Notes under the pieces: model-generated
What the model was told of the DNA's origin: nothing
What the model saw: only the letters and a program-made list of their open reading frames with translations
Databases searched by the model: none
Program-made: the position numbers and the translations under genes
From: Flavobacterium psychrophilum
GTDB lineage: Bacteria > Bacteroidota > Bacteroidia > Flavobacteriales > Flavobacteriaceae
Assembly: GCA_945905915.1 (NCBI GenBank)
Contig: CAMDQL010000005.1
Location: 1 to 44,702, forward strand
Reading direction: 5' to 3'
DNA: 44,702 bases
Shown here: piece after piece, positions 2,604 through 38,333 of the stretch
Position numbering within the stretch: position 1 is the stretch's first letter
Layout: every line of letters starts with the position of its first letter

Positions 2604-3296
2604 TTATTCCATTAGAATTTTAGAAAAAACAAAAACATAACCTTCAATCAGATGAAATTGAACCTGAAATTTTTCAATTTGGTTTTTAAAATGTAATTCG
2701 GCAGTGCAATTACCCGCTTCTATATCAAATGTATCTTCAAAAATATGCTCTGGAAAACTAATTCCTTTTTCGTTCTTAATTTTAAATATAGATTCTTTAA
2801 TTCCCCAGACAATAGTTGTTTTAGTAACTTGATCTGCAATTGAAAGTCCTTGTAAATGAATAACATCCATAAATCTAGGTGCAATTTTCAACGACTTCTC
2901 TTTTATTAACTCTAAATCAATTCCAATTACCTCATCGCTAATACAAATACATGAAAACTCGTGTGAATGTGAAATAGAGATATGTTGAGTGATGGGTGAT
3001 GGGTGATGGTTGACGGATTCACTACTTTTATCTTCTAACTTTTGCCTATTAACTTGTAAATGCGGTTTTCCGGCAGCATCATACGTTAAATCATTATCTG
3101 AAAAATCTAAATATTGAAGCAACATTCTAACGGCTAAAAACCCTTTTTGATGCGCCTCCGACTTCATCCCCTCTAATCGTTTTATAGATGCATCGCTTAA
3201 TGAAACCGCTCTAAATAAAGAAGTTACGTCTTCGGTAATGTGCCAAAAGTACGCCGTAGTCGTTTCATTAATTGTTATAGTTTTATATAATGGCAT
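2604..3296 (-). CDS. 4'-phosphopantetheinyl transferase superfamily protein, with a repeat-derived insertion
   Basis: Transfers phosphopantetheine from CoA to a carrier-protein serine. The 230 residues contain the superfamily motifs: HISISHSHE (from 105), GIDLELI (the Mg2+-binding Asp/Glu pair) and WGIKESIFK (W-x-x-KE). It is Sfp/AcpT-like rather than AcpS. It is longer than usual because residues about 81-104, between GKPHL and the first His motif, are encoded by ten consecutive 7-bp repeat units (2984-3053). The motifs on both sides are intact, so the enzyme is probably active. It is divergent from ahcY and leads the pnuC-DUF4301-arfB group. A weak -7 match (7/8) lies at 3342-3349. Confidence 0.88.
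   Translation of the reverse strand: MPLYKTITINETTTAYFWHITEDVTSLFRAVSLSDASIKRLEGMKSEAHQKGFLAVRMLLQYLDFSDNDLTYDAAGKPHLQVNRQKLEDKSSESVNHHPSPITQHISISHSHEFSCICISDEVIGIDLELIKEKSLKIAPRFMDVIHLQGLSIADQVTKTTIVWGIKESIFKIKNEKGISFPEHIFEDTFDIEAGNCTAELHFKNQIEKFQVQFHLIEGYVFVFSKILME
2984..3053 (-). repeat. Ten-unit heptanucleotide repeat inside a coding sequence
   Basis: Ten contiguous 7-bp units in phase. At one end are GTGATGG copies at 2989-3009, and at the other end degenerate units such as GTTAATA and GGCAAAA on the minus strand. The block keeps the reading frame of the phosphopantetheinyl transferase and encodes a polar linker that includes NHHPSPITQ. Confidence 0.75.
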
Positions 3297-3358
3297 CTAT
3301 AGTATGTTGTTTTTCAAATCATTAGAAAGCTAAACATTTCACAAATTAATAGAAATCT

Positions 3359-3390
3359 TTGTTAAAATAAAAAGTTATTTTGTAATTTTG
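3359..3390 (+). promoter_or_regulatory. Promoter of ahcY
   Basis: TTG (3359-3361), 21-bp spacer and TAATTTTG (3383-3390), a full match to the Bacteroidetes -33/-7 consensus. The leader is about 30 nt and starts with a short TCTAA-TT-TTAGA hairpin. Confidence 0.75.
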
Positions 3391-3426
3391 CGCTCTAATT
3401 TTAGAACATACAAATATACATAATAG

Positions 3427-4743
3427 ATGAGTACACAAACATTACCTTTTGTAGCTTATAAAGTGAAGGATATTTCGCTTGCAGCTTGGGGAAGAAAAGA
3501 GATTGAATTAGCAGAAGCTGAAATGCCAGGCTTAATGGCTTTACGTGCAGAATATAGTGCGAGCCAACCATTAAAAGGTGCTAGAATTGCAGGATGTTTA
3601 CACATGACGATTCAAACGGCAGTTTTAATTGAAACTTTGATAGCTTTAGGCGCAGAAGTTACTTGGTCATCTTGTAATATTTTCTCAACGCAAGATCAGG
3701 CTGCTGCTGCAATTGCTGCTGCTGGAATTCAAGTTTATGCTTGGAAAGGATTAAATGAAGAAGATTTTGATTGGTGTATTGAGCAAACGTTATTCTTTGG
3801 CGAAGACAGACAACCCTTAAACATGATTTTAGATGATGGTGGCGATTTAACAAACATGGTTATCGACCGTTATCCAGAATTAGTTGCTGGAATCAAGGGT
3901 TTATCTGAAGAAACTACAACTGGAGTTCACCGTTTATATGAGAGAGTTAAAGCAGGAACATTACCAATGCCAGCAATTAACGTAAATGATTCGGTTACTA
4001 AATCTAAATTTGATAACAAATACGGTTGTAAAGAATCGGCAGTAGATGCTGTTCGTCGTGCAACTGATATTATGTTAGCTGGAAAAAGAGTAATCGTTTG
4101 TGGATATGGAGATGTAGGAAAAGGAACTGCCGCTTCTTTTAGAGGTGCTGGTTCTATTGTAACTGTTACTGAAATTGATCCAATTTGTGCTTTACAAGCG
4201 GCAATGGACGGTTTTGAAGTAAAAAAATTAAATACAGTTATTGGAACTGCTGATATTATTATCACTACTACTGGAAATAAAGATATTGTGTTAGGATCTC
4301 ACTTCGAACAAATGAGAGACAAAACGATAGTTTGTAACATCGGTCACTTTGATAACGAAATTGATATGGCTTGGTTGAACAAAAACTTTGGTCACACAAA
4401 ATCTGAAGTAAAACCGCAAGTGGATATTTACAACGTAAACGGAAAAGATATAATCATCTTAGCTGAAGGGCGCTTAGTAAACTTAGGTTGTGCTACAGGT
4501 CACCCAAGTTTTGTAATGAGTAACTCATTTACCAACCAAACATTAGCGCAAATTGAATTATGGAAAAATAGCGCAGCTTATAACAACGACGTTTATATGT
4601 TACCAAAACATTTAGATGAAAAAGTAGCGATGTTACACTTAGCTAAATTAGGTGTGGAATTAGAAACATTACGTCCAGAACAAGCAGAATATATTGGTGT
4701 AGAAGTTCAAGGTCCATTCAAACCTGAGTATTACAGATACTAG
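3427..4743 (+). CDS. ahcY: Adenosylhomocysteinase (S-adenosylhomocysteine hydrolase)
   Basis: Reversibly splits S-adenosylhomocysteine into adenosine and homocysteine, removing the inhibitory product of methyltransferases. It is cytoplasmic and NAD-dependent. The 438-residue protein has the family's usual length. Visible hallmarks are [16 protein letters not shown] near residue 60, a [11 protein letters not shown] substrate segment, the NAD-binding glycine-rich loop [12 protein letters not shown], and the C-terminal FKPEYYRY tail characteristic of SAHH. It is monocistronic, with its own promoter and an intrinsic terminator just downstream. Confidence 0.98.
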
Positions 4744-4776
4744 TATTAAGATAAAAGTATTAAGTATTAAGACTAT
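4742..4776 (+). repeat. Heptanucleotide repeat, five units
   Basis: Five consecutive 7-mers between the ahcY stop and its terminator. AGTATTA occurs three times, interrupted by AGATAAA and followed by AGACTAT. All units begin with AG. Confidence 0.7.
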
Positions 4777-4778
4777 AG

Positions 4779-4808
4779 AAACCCTTGCAGTAATGTGAGG
4801 GTTTTTTT
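4779..4808 (+). terminator. Intrinsic terminator of ahcY
   Basis: AAACCCT (4779-4785) pairs with AGGGTTT (4798-4804), followed by a run of T. It lies between the convergent ahcY and mmcQ-like genes. Confidence 0.8.
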
Positions 4809-5172
4809 AGGATCCAAAAATTTCTTGTTGCGCTTTTTTTGTTAAACTTTTGAAAACAAGTTCGTACGAATGATTAATCAATTCGCACATCATTTTATCG
4901 GAAACATCGCTTTGGAAATGAATGGTGTTCCAATGCACTTTACTCATATGATAACCCGGTTCAATGGCTTCATATTCGGGTCGAAGTTCCAAGGCGCGTT
5001 CGGGATCGCATTTTAAATTTAGACTTGGCGTTCCTTTTTCCCAATCGGATAACGAGGTTAGACAAAACATTTTTCCACCTACTTTAAACACCAACGTATC
5101 TTCATCAAACGGAAAATGTTCGGTGACGGCTTTTTTGCTCAAACAGAACTCATATAATTGTTGAATATCCAT
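4807..5172 (-). CDS. MmcQ/YjbR family protein
   Basis: A 121-residue cytoplasmic protein of the MmcQ/YjbR fold (double-wing DNA-binding-like). Recognisable features are the start MDIQQLYEFCLSKKAVTEHFPFDEDTLVFKV, a GTPSLNLKCDPERALELR segment, YHMSKVHWNTI, and the final SYELVFKSLTKK. Some members have been linked to DNA binding, but no precise role is known. It is the last gene of a minus-strand series and is separated from the four-helix-bundle gene by a heptanucleotide repeat. It converges on ahcY. Confidence 0.85.
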   Translation of the reverse strand: MDIQQLYEFCLSKKAVTEHFPFDEDTLVFKVGGKMFCLTSLSDWEKGTPSLNLKCDPERALELRPEYEAIEPGYHMSKVHWNTIHFQSDVSDKMMCELINHSYELVFKSLTKKAQQEIFGS

Positions 5173-5178
5173 GACAAT

Positions 5179-5213
5179 AGTTGGGAGTAATGAGTTTTTA
5201 GTTAGGAGTTTTT
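5179..5213 (+). repeat. Heptanucleotide repeat, five AGTnnnn units
   Basis: Five units in phase: AGTTGGG, AGTAATG, AGTTTTT, AGTTAGG and AGTTTTT. It fills most of the gap between the mmcQ-like and four-helix-bundle genes. Confidence 0.75.
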
Positions 5214-5224
5214 TATCGTTTAAT

Positions 5225-5596
5225 TTATATTTTACTTGAACCGAATTTATCTGGATTATTCATCATATAATAAATTAGTTTCCCAACTTCTGTATTCAGA
5301 GCAGTGAGTTCGTTGTATTTTATTTCTTCCAAATAACCACATGCTAATGAAAAATCTAACCACACTTGAGTTTCAGAATTTTCTGCTTCTGCATCAGTAA
5401 GTTTACTCAAGAAATTTTTGGGATAAACTCTTTTTCTATATGATTCTGTAATTGTTACTGATACACTTCTTGAACTTCTCCTAATCTGATCGGTTAATGA
5501 ATATTTTTCTTCTTTTGGAAAATTTTTGGATACATCAAAAACAAACATGGCTAAAGCGAACGATTTTTTATAGGCTAATAAATCTTTATAATCCAT
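5225..5596 (-). CDS. Four-helix-bundle protein (S23/IVS-encoded protein family)
   Basis: A 123-residue helical protein that matches the family often called 23S rRNA-intervening-sequence or 'four helix bundle' protein. It opens with YKDLLAYKKSFALAMFVFDVSKNFPKEEKYSLTDQIRRSSRSV and continues with a central NFLSKLTDAEAENSETQVWLDF. In other bacteria the gene may sit inside 23S rRNA or be free-standing, as here. The biochemical role is unknown. It lies between two heptanucleotide repeat blocks, and no promoter is evident, so it probably shares a transcript with the cyclase gene upstream. Confidence 0.85.
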   Translation of the reverse strand: MDYKDLLAYKKSFALAMFVFDVSKNFPKEEKYSLTDQIRRSSRSVSVTITESYRKRVYPKNFLSKLTDAEAENSETQVWLDFSLACGYLEEIKYNELTALNTEVGKLIYYMMNNPDKFGSSKI

Positions 5597-5612
5597 AATT
5601 TACACTTTTTAA

Positions 5613-5654
5613 AACTTGCAACTCCAAACTTGCAACTCTAAACTCCTTACTCCA
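5613..5654 (+). repeat. Heptanucleotide repeat, six units, overlapping a stop codon
   Basis: Units AACTTGC, AACTCCA, AACTTGC, AACTCTA, AACTCCT and TACTCCA, in perfect 7-bp phase. The last unit and a half code on the other strand for the final residues and stop of the cyclase-family protein. Confidence 0.75.
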
Positions 5655-6402
5655 AACTATACAAAACCGGCTTACTGGGACTCGCGTCATTCTCAAACGA
5701 AGCAAATTGTAAATTCAAAATATAACTTCCGTCTTTAACTGAATCGTCTACATAAATCATTTCGGTAATCGTACAATTAAATCGAGCGTCGTCATTAGCT
5801 TGATTTATGTCTTTCACATTCCAAAAGGCTTTATGCGCCAACAATTTTCCTTCATCGTGTTCTCTGTCAACACTTGGTAAATCAATGAGCAAATGCTGAA
5901 TTTCTTTTTCTCTGATAAAAATAGCTGCCGCTTCTTCTAAATAAGGCGGATTCGTATTCGAATAATTTAAATGTTTTTTGCTTTCTGGATTTGGCAATGT
6001 TCTAATAATGATGGCTTGTGGTGTAGTTGTGCCCAAAGCAATTTCAATTTGCGCTTTCGTAATGATTAAATCTTCTCCAACGCTTTTTGGTTCTACCGAA
6101 ATCAATTCAGCAGTAAAGAAAAACTGTTTTAAACATTGATTAATGGAATAAAAATCACGGGTAATATGCCCCAAACATTCCGTATGAGTCCCATGGGCAT
6201 GCGGATTGAAGAAAATATTATTGAAATTTGTGGACGATTTTCCTTCCGAAACTTTTCCAATCCAGTCACCCATAGTTACCGGTTCAATTTCGGGCACGTT
6301 TTGATACCAAGCAATCGGATTTTTATCATTATTAGTCAAAGGAATAGAGATATCAATTGGCTTTGATAAATCGATTTGTATGTTGTTTATTGTTGCTTTC
6401 AT
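5647..6402 (-). CDS. Cyclase family protein (kynurenine formamidase-like metal hydrolase)
   Basis: A member of the Cyclase superfamily, which includes bacterial kynurenine formamidase and isatin hydrolase. These are metal-dependent hydrolases of amide bonds. The motif HAHGTHTECLGHI corresponds to the metal-binding HxGTHxDxPxH of the family, with Glu where many members have Asp. Downstream, a DLPSVDREHDEG segment carries further conserved acidic and His residues. I start it at the ATG at 6402 (251 aa); an in-frame TTG 15 nt upstream is less likely. The substrate cannot be told from sequence. Its 3' end lies within a heptanucleotide repeat. Confidence 0.82.
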   Translation of the reverse strand: MKATINNIQIDLSKPIDISIPLTNNDKNPIAWYQNVPEIEPVTMGDWIGKVSEGKSSTNFNNIFFNPHAHGTHTECLGHITRDFYSINQCLKQFFFTAELISVEPKSVGEDLIITKAQIEIALGTTTPQAIIIRTLPNPESKKHLNYSNTNPPYLEEAAAIFIREKEIQHLLIDLPSVDREHDEGKLLAHKAFWNVKDINQANDDARFNCTITEMIYVDDSVKDGSYILNLQFASFENDASPSKPVLYSLE

Positions 6403-6406
6403 ATTT

Positions 6407-6518
6407 TTTAAACGCAAAGAATTAAAGATTATTCGTTTTCTGTCATACTATTTATTTTGGCGTGTATAATTAAATTGTTGCGTCCTTTGCGAAAAACTTT
6501 GCGGTCTTTGCGTTTAAA
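6407..6518. repeat. 112-bp segment bounded by 13-bp perfect inverted repeats
   Basis: TTTAAACGCAAAG (6407-6419) and its exact reverse complement (6506-6518) flank the whole hemW-cyclase gap. Further CTTTGCG copies lie inside the right half (6484-6512). No open reading frame and no target-site duplication are seen. Confidence 0.5.
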
Positions 6519-7676
6519 CTACTCCAAATTTAATAAAAACAAATCACTCGCAATTCCATCACACAAAAACTTTCCGTTTTTTGTAGTTCGTAAAATGTTC
6601 TCGTCAACAAATAATAAATGGTCTTCAATGAATTTTGCTGCTTGTTGATTCAGATAATCTAAATAAGTTTTTCCAAATTCTTCTTCAATTCGATCCAACG
6701 AAACGCCCCAAATTGTGCGTAAACCGGTCATAATATATTCGTTATAACGATCGGTTTTAGTTAATGTTTCAATTTCAATGGGTAATTTATTTTCTTGAAT
6801 CGACTTTATGTACAATGCATTATTTGACACATTCCAACCTCTATTTTTTCCATCATAACTGTGTGCAGAAGGACCAATGCCAATGTATTTTTTTCCCAAC
6901 CAATAACTAGAATTGTTTTTTGAAAAATAATTTTCTTTTCCAAAATTCGATAATTCATAATGAATAAAATCGTTTTCCGAAAGTTTGTCTACCAAAATTT
7001 GAAAATGGGCTGCAGCCACTTCGTCATCGGGTTGCGGAATAATCGCTTTTTGAATGAACGAATGCAGCGCTGTTTTGGGCTCAACCGTTAAAGCATAACT
7101 TGAAATATGCGGCACATTAAACGACAGCGCGGTTTCGATGTTTTGCAACCATTTTTCATTGGACATATTCGGAATTCCGTAAATCAAATCAATGGAAATA
7201 TTATTAAAGTATTGCGTGGCGATTTCTAAACATTTTTTGGCTTCTTCCATATTGTGCGCTCGATTCATCAACTTCAAATCGTCTTCAAAAAACGATTGAA
7301 TTCCGATAGACAAACGATTTACAGGTGAATTAGCTAATTGACGAATTGTCTCATAACTTAAGTCATCTGGATTGGCTTCAACTGTTATTTCTGGAGTTGA
7401 AACAACTTTATAGTTTCTATATACCTCATCAATCAAAAATTTCAAATCCGAAATTTCTAAAATACTTGGCGTTCCTCCACCAAAATAAATAGTTTCAATA
7501 ACTTCGTTGTGGGGAGTTGGGAGTTGGGAGTTAGAAGTGCTTTTACTTCGCAGTTCAATTTCTTTTGCCAATGCCTGAACCATTTCGTCTTTCTTCTTCA
7601 ACGAAGTAGAAAAATGAAAATCACAATAATGACAAGCTTGCTTGCAGAATGGGATGTGGATGTATATGCCTGACAT
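6519..7676 (-). CDS. hemW: Radical SAM heme chaperone HemW
   Basis: HemW binds heme and a 4Fe-4S cluster and delivers heme to respiratory enzymes. It was formerly annotated as oxygen-independent coproporphyrinogen oxidase. The 385-residue protein has the radical SAM cysteines C11, C15 and C18 (CKQACHYC), the FGGGTPS loop, and the IGIQSF and LIYGIPN segments of the HemN/HemW family. Its length is normal apart from an unusual linker, STSNSQLPTPH at residues 46-56, encoded by 7-bp repeats. It follows ruvC across a repeat-filled 62-bp gap. A true HemN is longer and has an N-terminal extension that is missing here. Confidence 0.92.
   Translation of the reverse strand: MSGIYIHIPFCKQACHYCDFHFSTSLKKKDEMVQALAKEIELRSKSTSNSQLPTPHNEVIETIYFGGGTPSILEISDLKFLIDEVYRNYKVVSTPEITVEANPDDLSYETIRQLANSPVNRLSIGIQSFFEDDLKLMNRAHNMEEAKKCLEIATQYFNNISIDLIYGIPNMSNEKWLQNIETALSFNVPHISSYALTVEPKTALHSFIQKAIIPQPDDEVAAAHFQILVDKLSENDFIHYELSNFGKENYFSKNNSSYWLGKKYIGIGPSAHSYDGKNRGWNVSNNALYIKSIQENKLPIEIETLTKTDRYNEYIMTGLRTIWGVSLDRIEEEFGKTYLDYLNQQAAKFIEDHLLFVDENILRTTKNGKFLCDGIASDLFLLNLE
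7508..7542 (+). repeat. Heptanucleotide repeat inside hemW, five units
   Basis: Units TGTGGGG, AGTTGGG, AGTTGGG, AGTTAGA and AGTGCTT. On the coding strand they give the peptide SNSQLPTP. The reading frame is kept. Confidence 0.7.
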
Positions 7677-7688
7677 TTTATTAGTATT

Positions 7689-7738
7689 CAGTCGCAGTCG
7701 CAGTTTACAGCACTGAGACTGAAAACTGAGACTAAAAA
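7689..7738 (+). repeat. Mixed 6/7-bp tandem repeat between ruvC and hemW
   Basis: Starts with CAGTCG twice and CAGTTTACA (7689-7709), identical over 21 nt to 17992-18012. It continues as two near-identical 13-mers (ACTGAGACTGAAA and ACTGAGACTAAAA). Confidence 0.65.
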
Positions 7739-8293
7739 CTATTTTTTAATTCTCGATTCATTTTGTTTCACAAAAGCATCCCAACCCGAATAGCTTTTGC
7801 CAATTTCCACTCTTCCCGAATTGAAAAAATGACAAACTGCTGCTGCTAAACCATCGGTTGAATCAAGGTTTTTTGGTAATTCTTTTAAACCTAGTAGTTG
7901 TTGTAGCATTTTAGCCACTTGCTCTTTACTCGCATTTCCATTGCCAGTAATCGCCATTTTTATTTTTTTGGGTTCGTATTCTGTAATAGGAATATCTCTG
8001 GAAAGTCCGGCCGCCATGGCAACACCTTGCGCTCTTCCCAGTTTTAACATGGATTGCACGTTTTTACCAAAGAAAGGCGCTTCGATAGCAATTTCATCAG
8101 GATTATGGGTGTCAATTAATTCAATGGTACGTTCAAAAATGACTCTCAACTTTTGATAATGATTATCGTATTTAGATAAAATCAATTCGTTCAATTGTAC
8201 AAATTCCATTTTTTTATTGACCACCTTTATCAATCCGAAACCCATTATGGTGGTTCCAGGATCAATACCTAATATGATGCGTTCGTTTGCCAA
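7739..8293 (-). CDS. ruvC: Holliday-junction resolvase RuvC
   Basis: The endonuclease that cuts Holliday junctions after RuvAB branch migration. The four catalytic acids are all visible: D11 (GIDPGTT), E71 (AIEAPFF), and D143 and D146 (LDSTDGLAAA). The 184-residue length is normal. The gene begins 6 nt downstream of the lipoprotein gene's stop, so the two are probably co-transcribed. No ruvA or ruvB lies nearby. Confidence 0.97.
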   Translation of the reverse strand: MANERIILGIDPGTTIMGFGLIKVVNKKMEFVQLNELILSKYDNHYQKLRVIFERTIELIDTHNPDEIAIEAPFFGKNVQSMLKLGRAQGVAMAAGLSRDIPITEYEPKKIKMAITGNGNASKEQVAKMLQQLLGLKELPKNLDSTDGLAAAVCHFFNSGRVEIGKSYSGWDAFVKQNESRIKK

Positions 8294-8299
8294 TTGAAT

Positions 8300-8779
8300 T
8301 TATTTTTGAACTTTAATAATCACTGGAAGAATAAACTGGGTTTTTACTTTTATTCCTCGTTTAATTGCGGGTTCGACTTTTGGAAAATCTGCTAAACGGG
8401 CGGTTAAAATACTGTCGGCTTTTACTTTGTCGTAAGCCACACTGTCTTTAGAAAATTGCGGTTCAAATTGCAAACTCGAATCTGGATTAATCGTTACTTT
8501 TACAGAAATCGTATCGGTTTCAGGATATAACATTTGTAAGGTATCGATTCCTATACGCTCTTGAATGGTTTGTGATAAATAATCGAAAAAACATTGTTTC
8601 TTAACCGCTATGTCTTTTATGGTGTCGCATTGCATCACTGATGGCAATTCGTCTACTTCTTCCCAATTAATTTTTTGCAATTCTTGTTGCAATAATTGGT
8701 TTTCATCCGGTACTTTTTTGTCAAATAATTGACAAGAAGTTGCTAAAAGCACTAAAAATAATAATCCAACTTTATGCAT
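8300..8779 (-). CDS. Putative lipoprotein of unknown function
   Basis: I use the ATG at 8779 (159 aa), because MHKVGLLFLVLLATSC is then a clean lipoprotein signal peptide with Cys16 as the lipidation site. An upstream in-frame ATG would add 12 residues before the signal. The mature part is acidic and rich in Asp/Val/Lys, with the C-terminal segment RGIKVKTQFILPVIIKVQK, vaguely like TonB-C-type ends. I do not recognise a domain. It lies just upstream of ruvC and diverges from the DUF456 gene. Confidence 0.7.
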   Translation of the reverse strand: MHKVGLLFLVLLATSCQLFDKKVPDENQLLQQELQKINWEEVDELPSVMQCDTIKDIAVKKQCFFDYLSQTIQERIGIDTLQMLYPETDTISVKVTINPDSSLQFEPQFSKDSVAYDKVKADSILTARLADFPKVEPAIKRGIKVKTQFILPVIIKVQK

Positions 8780-8796
8780 TTGAAATAGAATAACTT

Positions 8797-8804
8797 TAAA
8801 TTTG
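8797..8804 (+). promoter_or_regulatory. -7 promoter box before the DUF456 gene
   Basis: TAAATTTG matches TAnnTTTG exactly, 31 nt before the ATG at 8836. A correctly spaced -33 TTG is not obvious. Confidence 0.5.
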
Positions 8805-9336: not shown

Positions 9337-9343
9337 TACAATC

Positions 9344-10659: not shown

Positions 10660-10694
10660 GGTGAAAGGTTATGGGTAAATGGTTATGGATAAAA
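10660..10694 (+). repeat. Heptanucleotide repeat, five units
   Basis: Units GGTGAAA, GGTTATG, GGTAAAT, GGTTATG and GATAAAA between the DUF58 gene and the trxA terminator. Four of the five start with GGT. Confidence 0.72.
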
Positions 10695-16715: not shown

Positions 16716-17444
16716 ATGTCAGTAAAAATTAGATTACAAAGACACGGAAAAAAAGGGAAACCTTTTTATTGGGTTGTTGCAGCAGATGCACGATCAAAAA
16801 GAGATGGTAAATTCTTAGAAAAAATCGGAACTTACAATCCAAACACCAATCCAGCAACTATTGATTTGAACTTAGAAAGTGCTGTTCAATGGTTACATAA
16901 TGGAGCTCAACCAACCGATACAGCAAGAGCTATTTTATCTTACAAAGGTGCTTTATTAAAACACCATTTAGATGGAGGAGTTCGTAAAGGTGCTTTAACT
17001 CAAGAACAAGCAGATGCTAAATTAGCCGCTTGGTTAGATGAAAAAGCAAACAAGGTTGACACTAAAAAAGCAGGATTATCAAAAGCGGATGAAGCAGCAA
17101 AAGCAAAAGCTTTAAAAGCTGAAAAAGAAGCTAACGCAAAACGTATTGCAGCTCAAGCTGAAGCATTGAAAGTTGAAGTAGAAGCTCCAGCAGAAGTTGA
17201 GGAAACTGTAGTTGAGGAAACTCCAGCAGTTGAAGCAGTAACTGAAGAAGCAGCTCCAGAAGTTGAAGCAGTAGCTGAAGTAGAAGCTCCAGAAGAAGTT
17301 GTTGAAACTGTAGTTGAGGAAACTCCAGAAGTTGAAGCAGTGGCAGAAGTTGAAGAAACTGTAGTTGAGGAAACTCCAGCAGTTGAAGCAGTAGCTGAAG
17401 AAGCTCCAGCAGTTGAAGAAAGCAACGAAGAAACAGAAGCTTAA
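16716..17444 (+). CDS. rpsP: 30S ribosomal protein S16 with a long acidic repetitive tail
   Basis: S16 is a small-subunit assembly protein. Residues 1 to about 80 are the S16 core: VKIRLQRHGKKGKPFYWVVAADAR, then KIGTYNP and AILSYKGAL. The protein is 242 residues, two to three times the usual bacterial length. Beyond a Lys/Ala-rich helical stretch (about 95-155), residues 163-230 are four 17-residue repeats based on ETVVEETPxVEAVAEx. At DNA level three copies start at 17202, 17304 and 17355, which are multiples of 51 bp apart. Bacteroidetes S16 proteins are often extended, but this tail is nearly all E/V/A/T/P. It leads the rpsP-rimM pair. Confidence 0.95.
   Translation: MSVKIRLQRHGKKGKPFYWVVAADARSKRDGKFLEKIGTYNPNTNPATIDLNLESAVQWLHNGAQPTDTARAILSYKGALLKHHLDGGVRKGALTQEQADAKLAAWLDEKANKVDTKKAGLSKADEAAKAKALKAEKEANAKRIAAQAEALKVEVEAPAEVEETVVEETPAVEAVTEEAAPEVEAVAEVEAPEEVVETVVEETPEVEAVAEVEETVVEETPAVEAVAEEAPAVEESNEETEA
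17202..17405 (+). repeat. 51-bp period minisatellite within rpsP
   Basis: A 25-nt unit starting GAAACTGTAGTTGAGG recurs at 17202, 17304 and 17355. The copy expected at 17253 has diverged. It encodes 17-residue acidic repeats. Confidence 0.75.
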
Positions 17445-17987: not shown

Positions 17988-17991
17988 TTTA

Positions 17992-18012
17992 CAGTCGCAG
18001 TCGCAGTTTACA
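17992..18012 (+). repeat. 21-bp repeat identical to one at 7689-7709
   Basis: Begins CAGTCG CAGTCG and ends TTTACA. It lies in the rimM-trmN6 gap in the same orientation as its copy between ruvC and hemW, 10 kb away. Confidence 0.65.
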
Positions 18013-21229: not shown

Positions 21230-21235
21230 TTTTTA

Positions 21236-21295
21236 GTTTCAAGTTTCAGGTTTCAAGTTTCAGGTTCGCTTAACTTGAAACCTGAAACTTGAAAC
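21236..21295 (-). repeat. Palindromic heptanucleotide repeat between FNR and ferredoxin genes
   Basis: GTTTCAAGTTTCAGGTTTCA and onward (21236-21259) is the exact reverse complement of 21272-21295, giving 24-bp arms around a 12-nt loop. Both arms are made of TTTCAAG/TTTCAGG heptads. No T run follows on the minus strand, so it is not a standard terminator. Confidence 0.8.
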
Positions 21296-32216: not shown

Positions 32217-32247
32217 AAAAAAGAGCAGTTTATAACTGCTCTTTTTT
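32217..32247 (+). terminator. Intrinsic terminator of the TonB-receptor gene
   Basis: AAAAGAGCAGTT-TAT-AACTGCTCTTTTTT begins immediately after the stop codon. Confidence 0.9.
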
Positions 32248-32340
32248 GTTTACATAAAAGCAACATTGTATTTACGATTATATGATTTTTCAATAACCTT
32301 TTTATAATAGTAAAAAAACATTCATAAAACATACCCTGAC

Positions 32341-32348
32341 TAAATTTG
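32341..32348 (+). promoter_or_regulatory. -7 promoter box of the surface lipoprotein gene
   Basis: TAAATTTG, an exact match, 26 nt before the ATG. No clear -33 TTG is present, which would fit activator dependence. Confidence 0.5.
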
Positions 32349-32374
32349 TAAAAACAATTAAAAAACAAACACAA

Positions 32375-33535
32375 ATGAAAAATTTATTTTTAAGTCTAAT
32401 TATTTTAGGAACTTTATTTACAGGTTGTTCAACCGATGATGAAGAAGGTACAATTGCACCAGTTCAAGGAGAACTTACAGGTTCTATCACCACAAACAGA
32501 ACACTAGCTTATGGAAACTACACTTTAAACGGTATTGTTACCATAGAAAATGGTGTAACCGTAACTTTTGACGCTGGTTCTACAGTTACTGCAAACGCAA
32601 CTAATGGTGTTGACGCTATTGTGGTAAAAAATGGCGGTAAATTAATTATGAACGGAACGGCTGCTCAACCAATCGTTTTAACTGAATCTTCTGCTGTTCC
32701 AGGATCATGGGGTGGTATTATTATGTATGGTGATGCACCTATTAATGGATCTGGTGGAACAACTACTAGAGCATCAGAAGATGGTTTAAATTTAATGTAT
32801 GGTGGAACAAACGCATCTCATAATGGTGGAACACTTCGCTATGTAAGAGTAGAATATGCTGGAAAGAAAATTACTGACGGAACTAGCGAAATGAATGGTT
32901 TTTCTTTCTATTCAGTAGGTTCAGGAACTATTTTAGAAAATTTAGTGTCTTACAAAGGAGCCGATGATGGTTACGAATTTTATGGAGGAACAGTAAGTGG
33001 AACAAACTTAATTTCTTACGGTAATTTTGATGATTCATTTGACTGGCAAGATGGATGGAAAGGACAAAACAATTCTAACTGGTATGCTTACCAAACTGGA
33101 ACTGGTAACTTTGGAATGGAAATTGAAGCTTCTAATAACAATAATTCTTATTTCCCAGTAGTTACAAATATTACTTTAAAAAGAGCAGCTGGTACAATAA
33201 CAGAAGGTGGTTCATCTGCTGCAGAATATGATGCTATCCAATTTAAAAAACAAGGAAACGGAGATTTTTCAAATATTCTAATTTCTGGATACACAACTTC
33301 AGGAGCAACAGCTGTTAGAATTCAAGATGCTGCAACAAATACTGATCAAGTGAATGGTAGTAAAATTAAATTAACGGCTGTTAAAATTAATGATGGTACT
33401 TCACAATTTGCAGGAGCAGGTGTAATTAGCGTTACTTTCCCAACAGGTCAATACACTACAAGCACAACTGCAACTGGTGCAAACATAACAACTGGCGCTT
33501 GGGCTACAGTAGGTGGTGTAAATTTATTACAATAA
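32375..33535 (+). CDS. Surface-exposed lipoprotein, probable right-handed beta-helix
   Basis: A 386-residue lipoprotein. The signal peptide MKNLFLSLIILGTLFTGC has the lipobox FTGC (Cys18), followed by STDDEEG. A Ser/acidic cluster at +2 to +6 fits the lipoprotein export signal that sends Bacteroidetes lipoproteins to the cell surface. The rest is repetitive, rich in G/N/T, with short strands such as GIVTIENGVTVTFDAGSTV and GTILENLVSYKGADDGYEFYGG, typical of a parallel beta-helix. No catalytic site is recognised. It follows the TonB receptor but has its own promoter and terminator; a ligand-capture partner role is inferred. Confidence 0.78.
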   Translation: MKNLFLSLIILGTLFTGCSTDDEEGTIAPVQGELTGSITTNRTLAYGNYTLNGIVTIENGVTVTFDAGSTVTANATNGVDAIVVKNGGKLIMNGTAAQPIVLTESSAVPGSWGGIIMYGDAPINGSGGTTTRASEDGLNLMYGGTNASHNGGTLRYVRVEYAGKKITDGTSEMNGFSFYSVGSGTILENLVSYKGADDGYEFYGGTVSGTNLISYGNFDDSFDWQDGWKGQNNSNWYAYQTGTGNFGMEIEASNNNNSYFPVVTNITLKRAAGTITEGGSSAAEYDAIQFKKQGNGDFSNILISGYTTSGATAVRIQDAATNTDQVNGSKIKLTAVKINDGTSQFAGAGVISVTFPTGQYTTSTTATGANITTGAWATVGGVNLLQ

Positions 33536-33553
33536 TCAATATTATAAATATTA

Positions 33554-33583
33554 AAAATCCCTCTAAAAGAGGGATTTTTTTTT
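33554..33583 (+). terminator. Intrinsic terminator of the surface lipoprotein gene
   Basis: AAAATCCCTC-TAAAA-GAGGGATTTT followed by further T. Confidence 0.92.
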
Positions 33584-33640
33584 GGCATTGTATTTGTTTT
33601 CCTTTTTTTTAATATCTTTACAGTTATATTTTAGTTGCTG

Positions 33641-33982
33641 ATGAAAAAAAAATACTCTTTTATTCTTTTATTGTTGTTGGTTTTAGGCTCTTTTAGTGTA
33701 CAAGCACAAGAAAGCAAATCAACTGCAACCTCTAAAACTCAAGAGTCTATCATTGAGGGACTAACTATTTACCCAAACCCTACAAACAGCGGAAGAATAT
33801 ATATTTCAACTAAATTATCCTTAGATAAAAAGGTAGAAATATTTAATGTGTTAGGAAAAAAAGTGTTAGAAACAGTCATTACTTCAAAAGAAGTAAACGT
33901 AAGCAACCTTACCGCTGGCGTTTACATCATTAAAATCAAAGAAGGAGAAGCAACTGCCACCCGAAAACTCATTATAAATTAG
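33641..33982 (+). CDS. Small protein made of a signal peptide plus T9SS type A sorting domain
   Basis: A 113-residue protein from the ATG at 33641; a TTG two codons upstream is less likely. Residues 1-23 are a signal peptide ending VQAQ. About 17 polar residues follow, and the rest (about 42-113) is a T9SS type A C-terminal domain with LTIYPNPTNSGRIYI, VEIFNVLGKKV, LTAGVYIIKIKEG and the KLIIN end. There is essentially no cargo. It could be a free sorting domain with its own function or a remnant of a larger protein. A TATCTTTA box lies at 33613-33620. Confidence 0.88.
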   Translation: MKKKYSFILLLLLVLGSFSVQAQESKSTATSKTQESIIEGLTIYPNPTNSGRIYISTKLSLDKKVEIFNVLGKKVLETVITSKEVNVSNLTAGVYIIKIKEGEATATRKLIIN

Positions 33983-34042
33983 TTGCTCTATTAAACAACA
34001 ATTTGTTAACACACAATAACAACTAAAACTCCCTAAAATAAA

Positions 34043-34050
34043 TACTTTTG
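34043..34050 (+). promoter_or_regulatory. -7 promoter box of the large T9SS protein gene
   Basis: TACTTTTG, an exact match, 23 nt before the ATG at 34074. No -33 TTG is seen at the right distance. Confidence 0.5.
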
Positions 34051-34073
34051 TCTTATAATTTAATCTTATTCAT

Positions 34074-35843
34074 ATGAAAAAACTTTACTTTTTATTATTG
34101 ACAATTTTAATGTCACTTTATTCCTTTGGTCAAGCAACTGATCTATATTTCAGTAAATATGGAGAAGGTTCTAGTAATAATAAATTTTTAGAAATTTATA
34201 ATGGTACAGGAGCGGCAGTTGATTTAAGTAATTATTCCATTGAACTTTATGCTAACGGCGCTGCTACTGCCTCAAATACTCAAACTTTTACAGCAGGCAC
34301 AATGATTGCAGCAGGTGATGTTTATGTTTTAAGAAATAGTGGTGCTGCTTTAACTGCTATTTTAAACGCTTCTGATATTTCATCTTCCGTTTGTAATTTT
34401 AATGGGGATGATGCAGTTGCTTTAAAAAAACTTGGAGTTGTTTTAGACGTAATTGGACAAATTGGAGCTGACCCTGGAACAAGTTGGCCTGTAGCAGGAA
34501 CAACTGTAGGCACATTAGACCATACATTAATTAGAAAACTATCTGTTTGTAGTCCAAATGCGGTAAATTTATCTTCCTTTGGTACTGATGCAACCAATTC
34601 TGAATGGATTGTATATGCAAGTGATGGTGAATTAGGTCAATTAGGAAGTTACGCTGGTTGCTCTTCAACCCCATCTTTAACAATATCTTCTCCAGCTTCC
34701 GCAACAATTTTTAATCCACTTACAACATCTGTAAATATTTCATTAGCAATAAGTAATTTCAACGTTGCTAGCGGAACAGGAGATGGACACATTCATTACA
34801 CTATTAATGGTGGTTCAGTTGTAATGAAATACGATACAACTCCAATTGCCATTCCGGTAACAGCTGGAAATACGTACATAGTGGCAATTGAATTAGTAAA
34901 CAATACTCATCAACCATTATCGCCAGCTGTAGGAGTTACTGTTACTTTTACCGTTGACTCATTTGTTACTGTTGCAGATTTAGCCGCTTTAAGAGCTCAT
35001 GTAGCTGCAAACAGCGCTGGAAAATATTATCAAGTTTCAAGTAGTCCTGTTGTTACCTACACTAGAACAACTCGTAATCAAAAATATGTTCAAGACACCT
35101 CTGGAGGTATCTTAATTGACGATAATGTAACTGCGCCAGGTGTAATCACAACTTCATTAACTGCTGGAGATGCTATTTCAGGATTAAAAGGACAGGCATC
35201 TTTGTTTAACGGTTTTTTACAACTTTTACCATTAGAAAATGTAACTGTTGCATCATCTGGAAATACAGTTACTCCGCAAGTGGTTACAATAGCTGAGTTA
35301 AATAACGCTACCGCAATTTTAGCGGGTACTTATGAAAGTGAATTAGTACAAATAAATGGTGTTACTTTTGACACAACAACAGCTAACTTTCCTTTAAGCA
35401 CAGACTTTGCAGCTAATATAAATTTAACTATTGGTTCTGATGTGTTAACATTTAGAACTGCTTTCTCGGAAGCAAATTATATGGGAACAGCTAAACCAAC
35501 AAGCGCAACAAACATTATTGCTTTAGTTGGAAGATTTAATGCAACCTCTCAAGTTACTTCTAGAAACACTACTGATTTGAATGCTCCTTTATCATCATCT
35601 TCATTTGACAACATCAACGGTTTAACAATGTATCCAAATCCAGTATCTGGAAACACATTGTATTTGAATTCTACTGCAAACGCAGAGATGGCAGTTCAAA
35701 TCTTTGATTTATTAGGTAAAGAAGTGTTGAAAGCTACTGTAGTGAACAACACAGTAAACGTAGCAAAATTAACGGCTGGTGTTTATGTAGTTAAAATTAC
35801 CGAAGAAGGTAAAACTGCTTCAAGAAAATTAGTTATTCAATAA
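34074..35843 (+). CDS. Secreted T9SS protein with lamin-tail-like and DUF5689-like domains
   Basis: A 589-residue protein with a signal peptide (1-20, ending FGQ). A lamin-tail-domain (LTD)-like beta sandwich spans about 22-140 (ISKYGEGSS-type start as FSKYGEGSSNNKFLEIYNGTG, and GDDAVALKKLGVVLDVIG). An Ig-like segment covers about 200-293, and a DUF5689-like OB-type region about 298-500 (VADLAALRAHV, GGILIDDNV). A T9SS type A sorting domain follows from about 511 (LTMYPNPVSGNTLYL to KLVIQ). It should be exported by T9SS and attached to the surface or released. Proteins of this plan often accompany secreted nucleases or phosphatases, but no catalytic domain is visible here. Confidence 0.82.
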   Translation: MKKLYFLLLTILMSLYSFGQATDLYFSKYGEGSSNNKFLEIYNGTGAAVDLSNYSIELYANGAATASNTQTFTAGTMIAAGDVYVLRNSGAALTAILNASDISSSVCNFNGDDAVALKKLGVVLDVIGQIGADPGTSWPVAGTTVGTLDHTLIRKLSVCSPNAVNLSSFGTDATNSEWIVYASDGELGQLGSYAGCSSTPSLTISSPASATIFNPLTTSVNISLAISNFNVASGTGDGHIHYTINGGSVVMKYDTTPIAIPVTAGNTYIVAIELVNNTHQPLSPAVGVTVTFTVDSFVTVADLAALRAHVAANSAGKYYQVSSSPVVTYTRTTRNQKYVQDTSGGILIDDNVTAPGVITTSLTAGDAISGLKGQASLFNGFLQLLPLENVTVASSGNTVTPQVVTIAELNNATAILAGTYESELVQINGVTFDTTTANFPLSTDFAANINLTIGSDVLTFRTAFSEANYMGTAKPTSATNIIALVGRFNATSQVTSRNTTDLNAPLSSSSFDNINGLTMYPNPVSGNTLYLNSTANAEMAVQIFDLLGKEVLKATVVNNTVNVAKLTAGVYVVKITEEGKTASRKLVIQ

Positions 35844-35848
35844 TTTAG

Positions 35849-35869
35849 ATGCTGAACTTGGTTCAGCAT
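35849..35869. repeat. Short palindromic intergenic element
   Basis: ATGCTGAAC-TTG-GTTCAGCAT, a perfect 9-bp stem with a 3-nt loop, followed by GACA. It resembles a palindrome seen often between genes in Flavobacteriia (from memory). It lies before the true terminator. Confidence 0.6.
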
Positions 35870-35881
35870 GACAAATAAAAG

Positions 35882-35911
35882 AAAAGCATCAACGAAAGTT
35901 GGTGCTTTTTT
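35882..35911 (+). terminator. Intrinsic terminator of the large T9SS protein gene
   Basis: AAAGCATCAAC-GAAA-GTTGGTGCTTTTTT, one G-T pair, good T run. Confidence 0.88.
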
Positions 35912-35932
35912 AATTTTGACCAATTTGTTTCC

Positions 35933-35940
35933 TATTTTTG
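35933..35940 (+). promoter_or_regulatory. -7 box 4 nt before the LuxE-like gene
   Basis: TATTTTTG, exact, ends 4 nt before the ATG. A second exact box, TAATTTTG (35911-35918), lies upstream and would give a 20-nt leader, so either could be used. Confidence 0.45.
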
Positions 35941-35944
35941 TACC

Positions 35945-36946
35945 ATGGTTTCACACGAGGATATCTTCCAAATTAGTTCTAAAAAAGAATTTGAAAAAAT
36001 TACTTTAAAAGTATTTCGTCATCAGTACGATAATAATTTGGTATACCAACAATTTTGCAACTTCTTGAAGAAAGATAAAACCAATGTAAAATCGTTATCT
36101 GAAATTCCGTTTTTGCCCATTCAATTTTTTAAAAGTCACGATGTCATTAGTTCGAACGAACCCGTTCAACAAACGTTTACGAGTAGTGGCACAACTGGAA
36201 TGCAAACCAGTAAACATTTAGTTACTGATGTCAATTGGTACGAACAAAGTTATCGCCTGGGCTTCTCTCAGTTTTACGGAAACATTGAAGATTATTGTGT
36301 ATTGGCATTGCTTCCTTCTTATTTAGAGCGCGAAGGTTCTTCTTTGATTTATATGGTAGAAGATTTAATTGAAAGCAGTAATCATGCAGATTCTGGGTTT
36401 TATTTGAATAATCACAGTGCGCTTTTGCAAAAAATTGAAAAACTAAACAAAGAAGGACAAAACATAATTCTTATTGGAGTAACCTATGCTTTATTAGACC
36501 TTATCGAATATGCACAAGCTACTTCATTTCCGCTTCGGGAATTAGGGAGCAACCTCATCATCATGGAAACGGGTGGCATGAAAGGAAAACGAAAAGAACT
36601 AATTCGCGAAGAATTACATACTATTTTATGCAACGGTTTTGGAGTGGCTAAAATTCATTCCGAATATGGGATGACCGAATTACTTTCGCAAGCCTATTCT
36701 TTAGGCGATGGAGTTTTTGAATGCCCTCCTTGGATACAAGTATTCATTCGCGATACCGAAGATGCATTTACATATGTTGCTGATGGTAAAACAGGTGGGA
36801 TAAACGTGATTGATTTGGCAAACATTAATTCGTGTTCGTTCATCGCTACACAAGATTTAGGCAAAAAAAATCCCAACCATTCGTTTGAAGTGTTGGGACG
36901 TTTTGATCATTCTGATATTCGAGGTTGTAACCTGATGGTTATCTAA
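35945..36946 (+). CDS. LuxE-like acyl-protein synthetase/acyltransferase
   Basis: A 333-residue member of the LuxE acyl-protein synthetase family, which activates fatty acids with ATP. Visible are the adenylate-forming-type loop [15 protein letters not shown] (about 80), [18 protein letters not shown] and [15 protein letters not shown], the order seen in LuxE and related ligases. luxC, luxD and luciferase genes are absent, so this is not a lux operon. In Bacteroidetes such single genes have been linked to envelope or surface-polymer acylation only by context. Its end overlaps the convergent tyrS by 8 nt. Confidence 0.85.
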
Positions 36947-38228
36947 CTTTTATCACATAATAATTTTTCTTTCCTTTTTGTAATAACAAAAACTGATTGT
37001 TGATTAAATCTGATGATGTAATTTTATAATCTTCAGCCACTTTCTCTTTATTCAAAGAAATAGCATTCTGTTTTAATTCTCTTCGTGCATCACTATTTGA
37101 AGCCAAAAAGTTGGTTTTTGCAGAAAGTGCAGCAATCATATCCAAACCTTCACTTAAATCTTCTTTTGAAATTTCTGCTTGTGGCACACCATCAAACACT
37201 TCTAAAAACGTTTTTTCGTCTAACTTTTTCAATTCTTCCATTGACGGACTAAAGAATGCATTTGAAGCCGCAATTGCGTTTTCTAAATCAGCTTGTGAAT
37301 GCACCATTACGGTAATTTCTTCTGCTAATCGCTTTTGTAACACTCTTAAATGAGGTGCTTCGCTGTGTTCAGCAATAAGTTTTTCAATAGTTTCTTTAGC
37401 TAAGAATGTGAAAATCTTGATGTATTTTTCGGCATCAACATCTGACGTATTCAACCAATATTGATAAAATTTGTAAGGCGAAGTTCGTTCGGCATCCAAC
37501 CAAATATTTCCACCTTCCGATTTTCCGAATTTCGTTCCATCGGCTTTTGTAATTAGTGGACAAGTTAACGCATAGGCTTTCCCAGATTCAATTCTTCGCA
37601 CTAATTCAGTACCAGTAGTAATGTTTCCCCATTGGTCACTTCCGCCCATTTGCAACGTACATTTTTTAGCTCGGTACAAATGTAAAAAGTCATATCCTTG
37701 AACTAATTGGTATGTAAATTCGGTAAACGACATTCCTTCCGAAGTATCACCCGTCAAACGCTTTTTAACCGAATCTTTTGCCATCATGTAGTTAACGGTA
37801 ATGTGTTTTCCTACATCACGAATAAAATCAAGGAATGAAAACTCTTTCATCCAATCGTAATTATTTACCAACTCAGCCGCATTAGCTTCGGCAGAAGTAA
37901 AATCTAAAAAACGAGCCAGTTGTCCTTTAATAGCTTCTTGATTATGTCGCAATGTAGCTTCGTCCAATAAATTTCGCTCATTTGACTTTCCTGATGGATC
38001 GCCAATCATTCCGGTTGCTCCACCCACTAGCGCTAAGGGTTTGTGACCACTCAATTGAAAATGTTTTAACAACATTACTCCAACTAAATGTCCTATATGC
38101 AATGAATCAGCTGTTGGATCAATTCCCACATACGCCACACGCATTTGCTCCATCAAATGTTCTTCTGTACCTGGCATAACGTCGTGGAGCATTCCTCTCC
38201 AAGTCACTTCTTCTATAAAATTCTTCAT
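36939..38228 (-). CDS. tyrS: Tyrosyl-tRNA synthetase
   Basis: Charges tRNA-Tyr. The 429-residue class I synthetase has the HIGH motif at 44-47 ([10 protein letters not shown]) with VGIDPTA before it, the tyrosine-binding GGSDQWGN, and the KFGKS loop ([13 protein letters not shown]). A C-terminal S4-like RNA-binding domain starts near 365 and ends [12 protein letters not shown]. Length is normal for TyrS. An exact -7 box (38248-38255) lies 19 nt before the ATG. Confidence 0.98.
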
Positions 38229-38247
38229 GATTCAATAATAATTTAAG

Positions 38248-38255
38248 CAAAGATA
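38248..38255 (-). promoter_or_regulatory. -7 promoter box of tyrS
   Basis: Minus-strand TATCTTTG, exact. The upstream side, where the -33 should be, is the heptanucleotide repeat block; no TTG falls at 19-21 bp. Confidence 0.55.
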
Positions 38256-38256
38256 G

Positions 38257-38333
38257 TTTTTAGTCTTAAAGTTTAAAAGTTTTATTCAAAATTCAAAAAC
38301 AAATCTTCCAACAGCCAGCTTCCAGCTTCCATC
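38257..38333 (+). repeat. Heptanucleotide repeat between divergent tyrS and epimerase, eleven units
   Basis: Eleven contiguous 7-bp units in one phase. Examples are GTTTAAA and AGTTTTA, then TTCAAAA twice, then TTCCAAC, AGCCAGC, TTCCAGC and TTCCATC. It fills the whole space between two divergent promoters. Confidence 0.75.

Follow-up and report, generated by a model that had tools for sequence, protein, structure and literature searches.

The analysed window, a whole stretch of 44,702 nucleotides from Flavobacterium psychrophilum (contig CAMDQL010000005.1), contains on its minus strand a gene for an IVP/S23 four-helix-bundle protein, located between a cyclase gene (5647-6417) and yjbR (Table 1). 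The gene is flanked by inverted heptamer arrays. A preliminary description had listed the sites 5179 and 5613 as separate loci, but they are the two arms of this one element; the AGTnnnn and nnnnACT patterns reported there were correct and reflect the opposite arms. The IVP protein matched the profiles PF05635 (E 7.6e-28; 97.3 bits, with a curated cut-off of 33.8), TIGR02436 (E 4.1e-25) and the bAvd-like PF22296 (E 3.5e-10), and solved relatives were found by sequence match in PDB entries 2rld (E 5.5e-8) and 2gsc (E 2.3e-5), with five chains per entry.

The 5' arm begins within the final cyclase codons and provides the stop codon of that gene, and the 3' arm adjoins the start of yjbR. The junction between the cyclase gene and the 5' arm is the same in the related locus L021, whose IVP is 88% identical to that of the window; in L001 stop and start are 8 nt apart. 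The complementarity of the two arms scored 42 against a shuffle mean of 18.7-21.0, a value reached by 0 of 1000 shuffles. The whole element folded as DNA was mildly special (z -1.97, equalled by 5 of 100 shuffles).

Table 1. Repeat features and the IVP gene in the window
Feature	Position	Strand	Description
ACCCATC array	2985..3016		inside phosphopantetheinyl-transferase-like gene 2604-3296
AGTATTA array	4742..4771		continues from ahcY stop codon
3' arm of IVP element	5179..5214	-	nnnnACT type; + strand AGTTGGG AGTAATG AGTTTTT AGTTAGG AGT
IVP/S23 four-helix-bundle protein gene	5225..5596	-	123 aa
5' arm of IVP element	5611..5658	-	AGTTTGG AGTAAGG AGTTTAG AGTTGCA AGTTTGG AGTTGCA AGTTTT
AACTCCC array inside hemW	7508..7541		encodes NSQLPTP
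IVP-less hairpin, ruvC-hemW	7677..7741	-	AGT units, mixed 6/7 spacing, facing ACT units
CAGTCG hexamer run	17988..18007	+	3' of rimM stop
IVP-less hairpin	21235..21295		GTTTCAA/G array 21235-21266 faces AACTTGA array 21272-21295

Period-7 repeats in the window

Lag-7 matches at the 12 sites named in the preliminary description were compared with local dinucleotide shuffles (120-nt stretches, 500 shuffles each, p uncorrected). Seven sites gave p <.05: 2984 (.002), 4742 (.008), 5613 (.018), 7508 (.002), 21236 (.002), 22386 (.006) and 38257 (.012). Marginal values were obtained at 10660 (.064), 7689 (.088), 15698 (.108) and 5179 (.120), while site 17992 showed no period 7 (.93) and holds a 6-bp CAGTCG run instead. 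Over the whole window, 5 arrays reached 16 or more of 21 lag-7 matches vs 0.25 per shuffled window; the other periods gave 0-1 arrays at 4-6 and 8-11, and 4-5 arrays at 12, 14 and 15. Intergenic autocorrelation showed only a modest excess (z 2.8 at lag 7, z 3.1 at lag 21). The period-7 signal therefore exceeds that of dinucleotide-shuffled DNA and is real, but its extent had been overstated. To describe them as strictly phased runs of 4-11 contiguous 7-mers is too strong, since perfect heptamer runs have at most 3.0 copies and Tandem Repeats Finder gave 2.1-4.6 copies at 88% matches or more and 4.3-5.6 copies at 65-76%. That program gave no period-7 or period-14 array at 5179 and 22386, and no period-7 array at 10660 and 15698. 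In 81 Flavobacterium-like sequences (80 related loci and the window, 1.58 Mb), 127 degenerate period-7 arrays were counted vs 6-48 per period at 4-6 and 8-13.

The repeats at 7689 and 21236 had been recognised, but RNA folding revealed that both sites are hairpins, which had been missed. The one at 21235..21295 sits between two minus-strand genes, has period 7 by Tandem Repeats Finder and folds at -35.8 kcal/mol (z -9.8), with an inverted partner score of 52 against null 95th percentiles of 26 and 20. The ruvC-hemW hairpin (RNA fold z -4.0) includes the ruvC stop codon TAG.

The claim that repeats had entered two genes was borne out. Among 81 HemW rows, only those of the window and L021 carry the AACTCCC array, an insertion, and a search for its inverted partner found none. 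The ACCCATC array lies in a gene whose profile score for the phosphopantetheinyl-transferase-like family is below the cut-off; the window and L006 have the array, and L001, L002, L003 and L005, which are all the other orthologues available, lack it. By RNA fold, the array after ahcY gave only a terminator-like stem (z -1.7), and the CAGTCG run, similar to one arm of the ruvC-hemW hairpin, is without partner or fold (z +0.9). Several other listed sites have only an isolated array or a weak signal, and membership of one family is not demonstrated for all of them: no link to an IVP gene or to a hairpin was found for 10660, 15698, 17992, 22386 and 38257.

IVP elements in related genomes

Three sets of IVP loci were used: 70 distinct genes from 80 IVP places in Flavobacterium, 30 Bacteroidota loci (best matches, one per genome) and 16 of 19 matches on cyanobacterial plasmids. 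Complementary flanks, with at most 1 of 100 shuffles scoring as well, were found at 58 of the 70 Flavobacterium genes vs 18 of 150 control genes, at 13 of the 16 cyanobacterial loci and at 16 of the 30 Bacteroidota loci, the other 14 failing the test. In 65 elements the own-arm match score averaged 21.1 vs 9.8 between elements, the highest of 5000 permutation means being 11.8. A period-7 array lay in the flank at 54/70 Flavobacterium and 22/30 Bacteroidota loci vs 34/150 controls, and the IVP gene was co-directional with both neighbours in 63/70 cases vs 760/1511 ORFs. Arrays flank the IVP genes in inverted order in most of the cyanobacterial loci, with a period nearer 8 than 7. We are highly confident that the complete element consists of an IVP (S23) gene flanked by inverted short tandem arrays, usually of 7 bp, in a gap between co-directional genes.

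Most arrays are not beside IVP genes. In the 80 loci and the window, only 3 of the 127 period-7 arrays lie within 200 bp of one (1.4 expected by area), and a significant inverted partner was found for 14 of 45 non-coding arrays and 5 of 82 arrays in ORFs; the proposition that every array is an IVP arm was therefore rejected.

The ruvC-hemW gap holds an IVP-less hairpin or an IVP-bearing element depending on the species. An IVP gene occupies it in 16 of the 80 related loci, another gene in 10, and a solo hairpin in 19 gaps (window included); for 18 of these, no more than 1 of 100 shuffles folds as well. Relatives do not carry identical unrepeated sequence at the repeat sites: their units differ there, an IVP gene is present, or the repeat is missing.

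The units are locus-specific, drift, and change jointly in both arms. The arms of one element were more alike than orthologous arms in 64 of 68 pairs, a comparison that covered elements passing the complementarity test, with arms trimmed by their own match. Arms from different sites were no closer within a genome (14.9) than between genomes (15.0), and the spread of one unit within a genome was looked for and not seen. In one coding array the unit changed but the length did not.

The IVP tree groups by site, with 17 changes vs 45.6 when shuffled, although 45 of its 115 rows lie outside any site group of at least 3, groups S3, S4 and S9 cluster poorly, and 5 of the 21 rows in the largest site group are duplicate records of the same locus. 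The best of 165 within-genome IVP pairs had an identity of 0.74; there are no near-identical copies within a genome, so no recent mobility was seen. With this value and the grouping by site, recent transposition and membership in the MITE-REP type were rejected. No transposase family match of the IVP gene appeared in the profile scans run. Median dN/dS was 0.09 (86 of 210 pairs) and 0.15 (15 of 36) at two sites and 0.46 (4 of 36) at a third; the other pairs were left out for saturation, too little divergence or insufficient length. Purifying selection acts on IVP at two of the sites.

A first genome-level contrast, using 20-kb Bacteroidota samples, was set aside: it was confounded by GC (0.54 vs 0.39), and one genome contributed 12 of its 21 arrays. 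The contrast was therefore repeated within Flavobacteriaceae at matched GC (0.34 vs 0.35), with the absence of IVP genes from the IVP-free samples judged by an HMM made from Flavobacterium sequences. With IVP, 22 period-7 arrays were found in 718 kb (12 of 20 genomes), and without IVP 4 in 670 kb (4 of 20 genomes), which gave p.0026 by Mann-Whitney and p.022 by Fisher, kinship and genome reduction being uncorrected. The 11 IVP-free genomes of at least 2.8 Mb had 2 arrays together.

Candidate mechanisms

The best explanation as a whole, to which we give a probability of about 0.55, is an intergenic relative of the rRNA intervening sequences, with heptamer arms that undergo local rewriting as DNA. 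Units would be evened out within an arm via 7-nt misalignment, and template switching across the inverted repeat would transfer a unit from one arm to the other. Rewriting at the DNA level has even odds. That IVP is the agent is a more tentative suggestion: the protein would bind the inverted-arm structure and favour its copying, and might promote the emergence of arrays at other genomic positions. The element would be slow, site-bound and possibly selfish, a counterpart in protein-coding operons of the rRNA intervening sequences. Solo hairpins would be its IVP-less forms, and lone arrays may stem from the same process. The broadest version, which we think unlikely, makes IVP/S23 a trans-acting factor of sequence-independent DNA copying in a 7-nt register, such that the scattered heptamers of Bacteroidota, cyanobacteria and perhaps xanthomonads would be one phenomenon; copying would keep inverted arms complementary, rewrite the unit and seed solo arrays over the chromosome.

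Plain polymerase slippage would produce neutral repeats with 7 nt as a favoured length, IVP genes merely sharing the tolerant gaps. It accounts for most arrays being solo and for units that drift locally and are not common to the loci of one genome, and in many genomes no long simple repeat is commoner than the heptamer (Mrazek 2007, as cited in excerpts of PMC4679880 and PMC4692102). However, the arms are inverted and covary, arrays flank IVP genes far more often than control genes, and arrays are few in genomes of the same family that lack IVP. Slippage, a possible driver in the preliminary description, does not by itself account for the joint change of opposite arms or for the kept length of the coding array with its new unit, and we regard plain slippage as rather doubtful. 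Selection of the arms as RNA, for mRNA pairing, RNase III cutting or cistron protection or separation as in rRNA intervening sequences, is a second alternative. Mismatches numbered 87 G-U vs 113 A-C in the arms (24/21 and 17/23 in further sets), whereas 322 terminator-like stems had 100 G-U vs 33 A-C. Since the arms, unlike terminators, have no G-U excess, their complementarity looks DNA-level, which disfavours the mRNA-structure role considered in the preliminary description. The window element, folded as DNA, also does only mildly better than shuffles. The RNA reading is thus quite unlikely, despite the operon-internal position, the strong RNA folds at 21236, 7689 and the solo gaps, and the RNase III cleavage of the rRNA version (PMC4990558, excerpt).

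Two further readings give the protein other roles. If each heptamer were bound by one subunit of an IVP oligomer, on single- or double-stranded DNA and with no role in copying, the regular register, inverted layout, DNA-like mismatches and five chains of the solved relatives would be expected; but the units vary from locus to locus in one genome and also among orthologues with a conserved IVP, which a fixed sequence specificity does not allow, and this ring-binding array is very improbable. Scarcely plausible is a process like that of diversity-generating retroelements, in which IVP, as an Avd relative, would act with a reverse transcriptase that writes the arrays in trans. PF05635 resembles Avd (PMC10053308, excerpt), the window IVP matches the bAvd-like profile, and reverse transcriptase (RVT_1) was found in 10/20 IVP-rich vs 2/20 IVP-free genomes. 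However, RVT_1, the reverse transcriptase expected of a diversity-generating retroelement, was unmatched in the other 10 IVP-rich genomes (drafts may miss some), a set that does not include the genome of the window, and an obligate partner of this kind was rejected.

Relation to known repeats and significance

The repeats resemble several known systems in part. Cyanobacterial STRR heptanucleotide repeats, as in Calothrix, are short tandem repeats of intergenic DNA. REP and MITE types are intergenic inverted repeats with the gene present or absent. The latter resemble our elements in occurring with and without a gene, but the terminal sequence is not common to our loci, the arms are tandem arrays and a transposase match is missing. 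The likeness to STRRs, which are mentioned in PMC4692102 (excerpt), was rightly drawn before: tandem 7-bp units fill intergenic gaps, enter genes and change fast at fixed sites. Unlike STRR, TAACTGA and GGGAATC repeats, no unit is shared across loci here.

In the available excerpt of PMC4990558, the 23S rRNA intervening sequence of Coxiella burnetii has an S23 ORF, described as decaying, between complementary arms, with GACAGAT heptamers in strain-variable number beside it. The window element likewise has an S23/IVP ORF between complementary arms with adjacent tandem heptamers, but it lies between the cyclase gene and yjbR, outside any rRNA gene, and in contrast to the Coxiella case purifying selection acts on IVP at two sites. 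The arm mismatches look DNA-like. TAACTGA repeats of Beggiatoaceae, Cyanobacteria and five Bacteroidetes (PMC4679880, excerpt) are also intergenic heptamer arrays, mixed with other heptamers and missing in relatives, but they have one fixed unit and are direct repeats 5' of start codons; an S23/IVP gene is unmentioned in that excerpt. Xanthomonas GGGAATC heptamers form inverted pairs, 70 in one genome and 75 in another, and occupy the same gaps in both species with varying length and sequence, as here, but they are a fixed G-rich unit for which quadruplexes were proposed (PMC4692102, excerpt); neither 'four helix' nor 'hypothetical protein' occurs in the text. In the titles and abstract openings listed by searches of the open-access literature, a published link between heptamer arrays and IVP was not found.

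There has so far been no agreed explanation for either heptanucleotide repeats or the S23/IVP protein. The present data join them by a common anatomy, a genome-level co-occurrence and a discriminator of DNA-like vs RNA-like mismatches, and so make it a testable question whether IVP makes or maintains the repeats. A widespread protein family with solved structures and purifying selection, but no known function, thereby gains a candidate substrate.

Heptamer arrays and the IVP element of the window

The heptamer pattern of the window is real and partly degenerate, but its length was overstated in the preliminary description, which had claimed runs of 4-11 strict-phase 7-mers; perfect runs reached at most 3.0 copies. 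Lag-7 similarity exceeded that of dinucleotide shuffles of the local sequence at seven of the 12 listed sites (p < 0.05, uncorrected) and was marginal at four, while the site at 17992 turned out to be a 6-bp run instead of a heptamer run. At the 16/21 threshold, 5 period-7 arrays were found in the window against 0.25 expected, and periods 12, 14 and 15 likewise reached 4-5 arrays; across 81 sequences period 7 was clearly dominant, with 127 arrays.

A single element accounts for the sites at 5179 and 5613: they form its arms, on either side of a 123-aa gene of the 23S rRNA intervening sequence protein family (IVP/S23, PF05635). The 5' arm has the minus-strand sequence AGTTTGG AGTAAGG AGTTTAG AGTTGCA AGTTTGG AGTTGCA; this arm begins inside the final codons of the cyclase gene, whose stop codon it provides. 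The 3' arm belongs to the nnnnACT type and its end adjoins the yjbR start. The arms share 35 nt of complementarity, which was matched by 0/1000 shuffles.

Features of the window and of a related locus
Feature	Position	Strand	Remark
5' arm of IVP element	~5611-5658		AGT-type units on minus strand
3' arm of IVP element	~5179-5214		nnnnACT type
Second hairpin without IVP gene	7689		fold z -4.0; ruvC-hemW gap
Hairpin without IVP gene	21236		fold z -9.8
ORF adjoining rimM	16716-17444		acidic tandem repeats at its end
Acidic 51- and 102-bp tandem repeats	17174-17434		
Glycosyltransferase gene in L001 (related locus)	7150-8253	minus	between g8300 and ruvC

At the junction holding the element, the stop-to-start distance was just 8 nt in the related locus L001, with gaps of equal size in L002, L004, L006 and L009. 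The same element was found at the same junction in F. ichthyis (L021), where the arms were complementary too (reached by 0 or 5/1000 shuffles, depending on flank length). An IVP gene in the cyclase-yjbR gap was restricted to the window and L021, as was an AACTCCC insertion in hemW among 81 HemW rows, and these features may be inherited from a shared ancestor or result from a transfer of this region. The window comes from a Flavobacterium: its HemW shares 86% identity with the F. lacisediminis protein and, in the HemW tree, falls into a small clade of Flavobacterium. HemW proteins of three loci titled Rhizobium, Sphingobacterium and Chryseobacterium (L016, L069 and L019, respectively) also lay among Flavobacterium, and these are possibly misnamed metagenome assemblies. 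Another repeat-like insertion (LDSARSD-type) was observed near hemW codons 45-55, in the same HemW loop, in several species (L025, L036, L054, L063, L067 and others).

In the ruvC-hemW gap, 16 of the 80 related loci carried an IVP gene flanked by an AGT-type and an ACT-type arm, and 19 sequences were of a solo hairpin type; 18 of the 19 were beaten in folding by at most 1/100 shuffles. IVP presence in this gap required 13 changes on the HemW tree, only slightly below the 14.9 of shuffled labels (41/500 shuffles were as low), and closely related sisters (e.g. L053 and L057) disagreed. A second gap type, AATT-rich and partly with 8-bp spacing, was seen in 16 loci (e.g. L043, L053); folding was better than shuffles in 7 of them.

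IVP genes and their flanks in other genomes

The comparisons drew on 80 loci related to the window, on IVP loci from 14 of those genomes and on broader samples. PF05635 was detected in all 14 Flavobacterium genomes of the comparison set (80 places, 75 without internal stops), in 90/118 Bacteroidota and 145/199 Flavobacteriaceae, and in 0/14 control genomes. Among the 70 distinct IVP genes analysed from these 80 places, 63 were co-directional with both neighbours versus 760/1511 ORFs. Mean complementarity to the own arm was 21.1 versus 9.8 between elements (65 elements), and the top mean of 5000 permutations was 11.8. Using fixed 160-nt flanks, the shuffle test of flank complementarity was passed by 58/70 Flavobacterium, 16/30 Bacteroidota and 13/16 cyanobacterial plasmid IVP loci versus 18/150 control genes. 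The passing arms had a period of 7 in Flavobacterium and Bacteroidota and of 8 in cyanobacteria, and complementary control flanks had neither. A period-7 array in at least one flank accompanied 54/70 Flavobacterium and 22/30 Bacteroidota IVP genes versus 34/150 controls.

A plasmid search with the window IVP gave matches only in cyanobacteria (19 records), and most of the 16 loci fetched carried inverted GCAGGGG-type arrays. In five of these plasmids (L181, L185, L186, L188, L195) a gene annotated as tyrosine recombinase or integrase directly followed the IVP gene. In L154, L169 and L177, long ORFs resembling, by eye, DNA-methyltransferase or restriction genes apparently contained the IVP gene or had it at their end, with arrays in coding sequence. 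In L165, the 3' arm of an IVP element overlapped the beginning of a gene that looked, by eye, like a sulfate adenylyltransferase, and N-terminal residues are therefore encoded by the repeats.

Evolution of arms and of solo and coding arrays

IVP proteins clustered by chromosomal site (17 changes versus 45.6 shuffled), with some groups lacking clustering. Purifying selection acted on them, with a median dN/dS of 0.09 at one site, 0.15 at another and 0.46, from four pairs, at a third; the arms at these sites were not conserved in sequence. In 64/68 orthologous pairs an arm matched its own opposite arm better than its orthologue (46.7 versus 29.5), a comparison biased by the trimming of arms on their own match and by its restriction to passing elements. 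Arms were no more alike within than between genomes, and therefore each locus drifts alone. G-U/A-C mismatches numbered 87/113 in Flavobacterium, where base composition predicts about equal numbers, 24/21 in Bacteroidota and 17/23 in cyanobacteria. Because the arms have no G-U excess, unlike terminator-like stems of the same loci (100/33), their complementarity looks like that of DNA.

Most arrays lay away from IVP genes (3/127 near them versus 1.4 expected by area), and a significant inverted partner was identified for 14 of 45 non-coding arrays. In relatives (L001-L073), a family 2 glycosyltransferase gene (PF00535) near ruvC carried a coding array at one site. Many Flavobacterium species had a heptamer-derived segment at ~0.22 of the length of this gene; a further array site lay near 0.78, and another array near 0.52 of an adjacent ORF (about 310-330 aa). 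Lag-7 identity of the glycosyltransferase array was at least 0.6 in 31 of 44 species with identical segment length. In those 31, within-array identity was ~0.67 throughout and orthologue identity dropped to 0.52 where divergence was greatest; at flank identity of 0.80-0.85 the two were equal (0.68 and 0.70). Such concerted change without a change in length would not easily arise through single slips of 7 nt within a reading frame.

In Flavobacteriaceae samples of similar GC, all of them free of IVP genes by HMM, period-7 arrays numbered 22 in 718 kb from IVP-rich genomes with at least 7 IVP genes (12/20 genomes) and 4 in 670 kb from IVP-free genomes (4/20 genomes; Mann-Whitney p =.0026, Fisher p =.022; kinship and genome reduction uncontrolled).

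Known systems and the proposed rewriting of arms

The rRNA intervening sequence is the nearest known kind to the window element: both have an ORF and arms, but the rRNA location is absent from the window element. The published intervening sequence of Coxiella has a 28-bp stem and is cleaved by RNase III, and tandem GACAGAT heptamers of strain-dependent number lie alongside the S23 ORF (PMC4990558). Units of the TAACTGA and GGGAATC families are fixed; for GGGAATC, 70 and 75 inverted pairs are given in two Xanthomonas genomes (PMC4692102). A link of S23/IVP genes to intergenic heptamer arms was not found in the open-access literature searched.

RNA processing, plain slippage, a reverse-transcriptase partner and a fixed-specificity binding array were weighed as alternatives, and each met a contrary result. 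We favour local DNA rewriting of the arms, with copying steps suggested by the sequence patterns: 7-nt misalignment would occur inside an arm, and template switching would lead from an arm to the opposite arm. From its association with the arms, IVP would be the likely binding partner.
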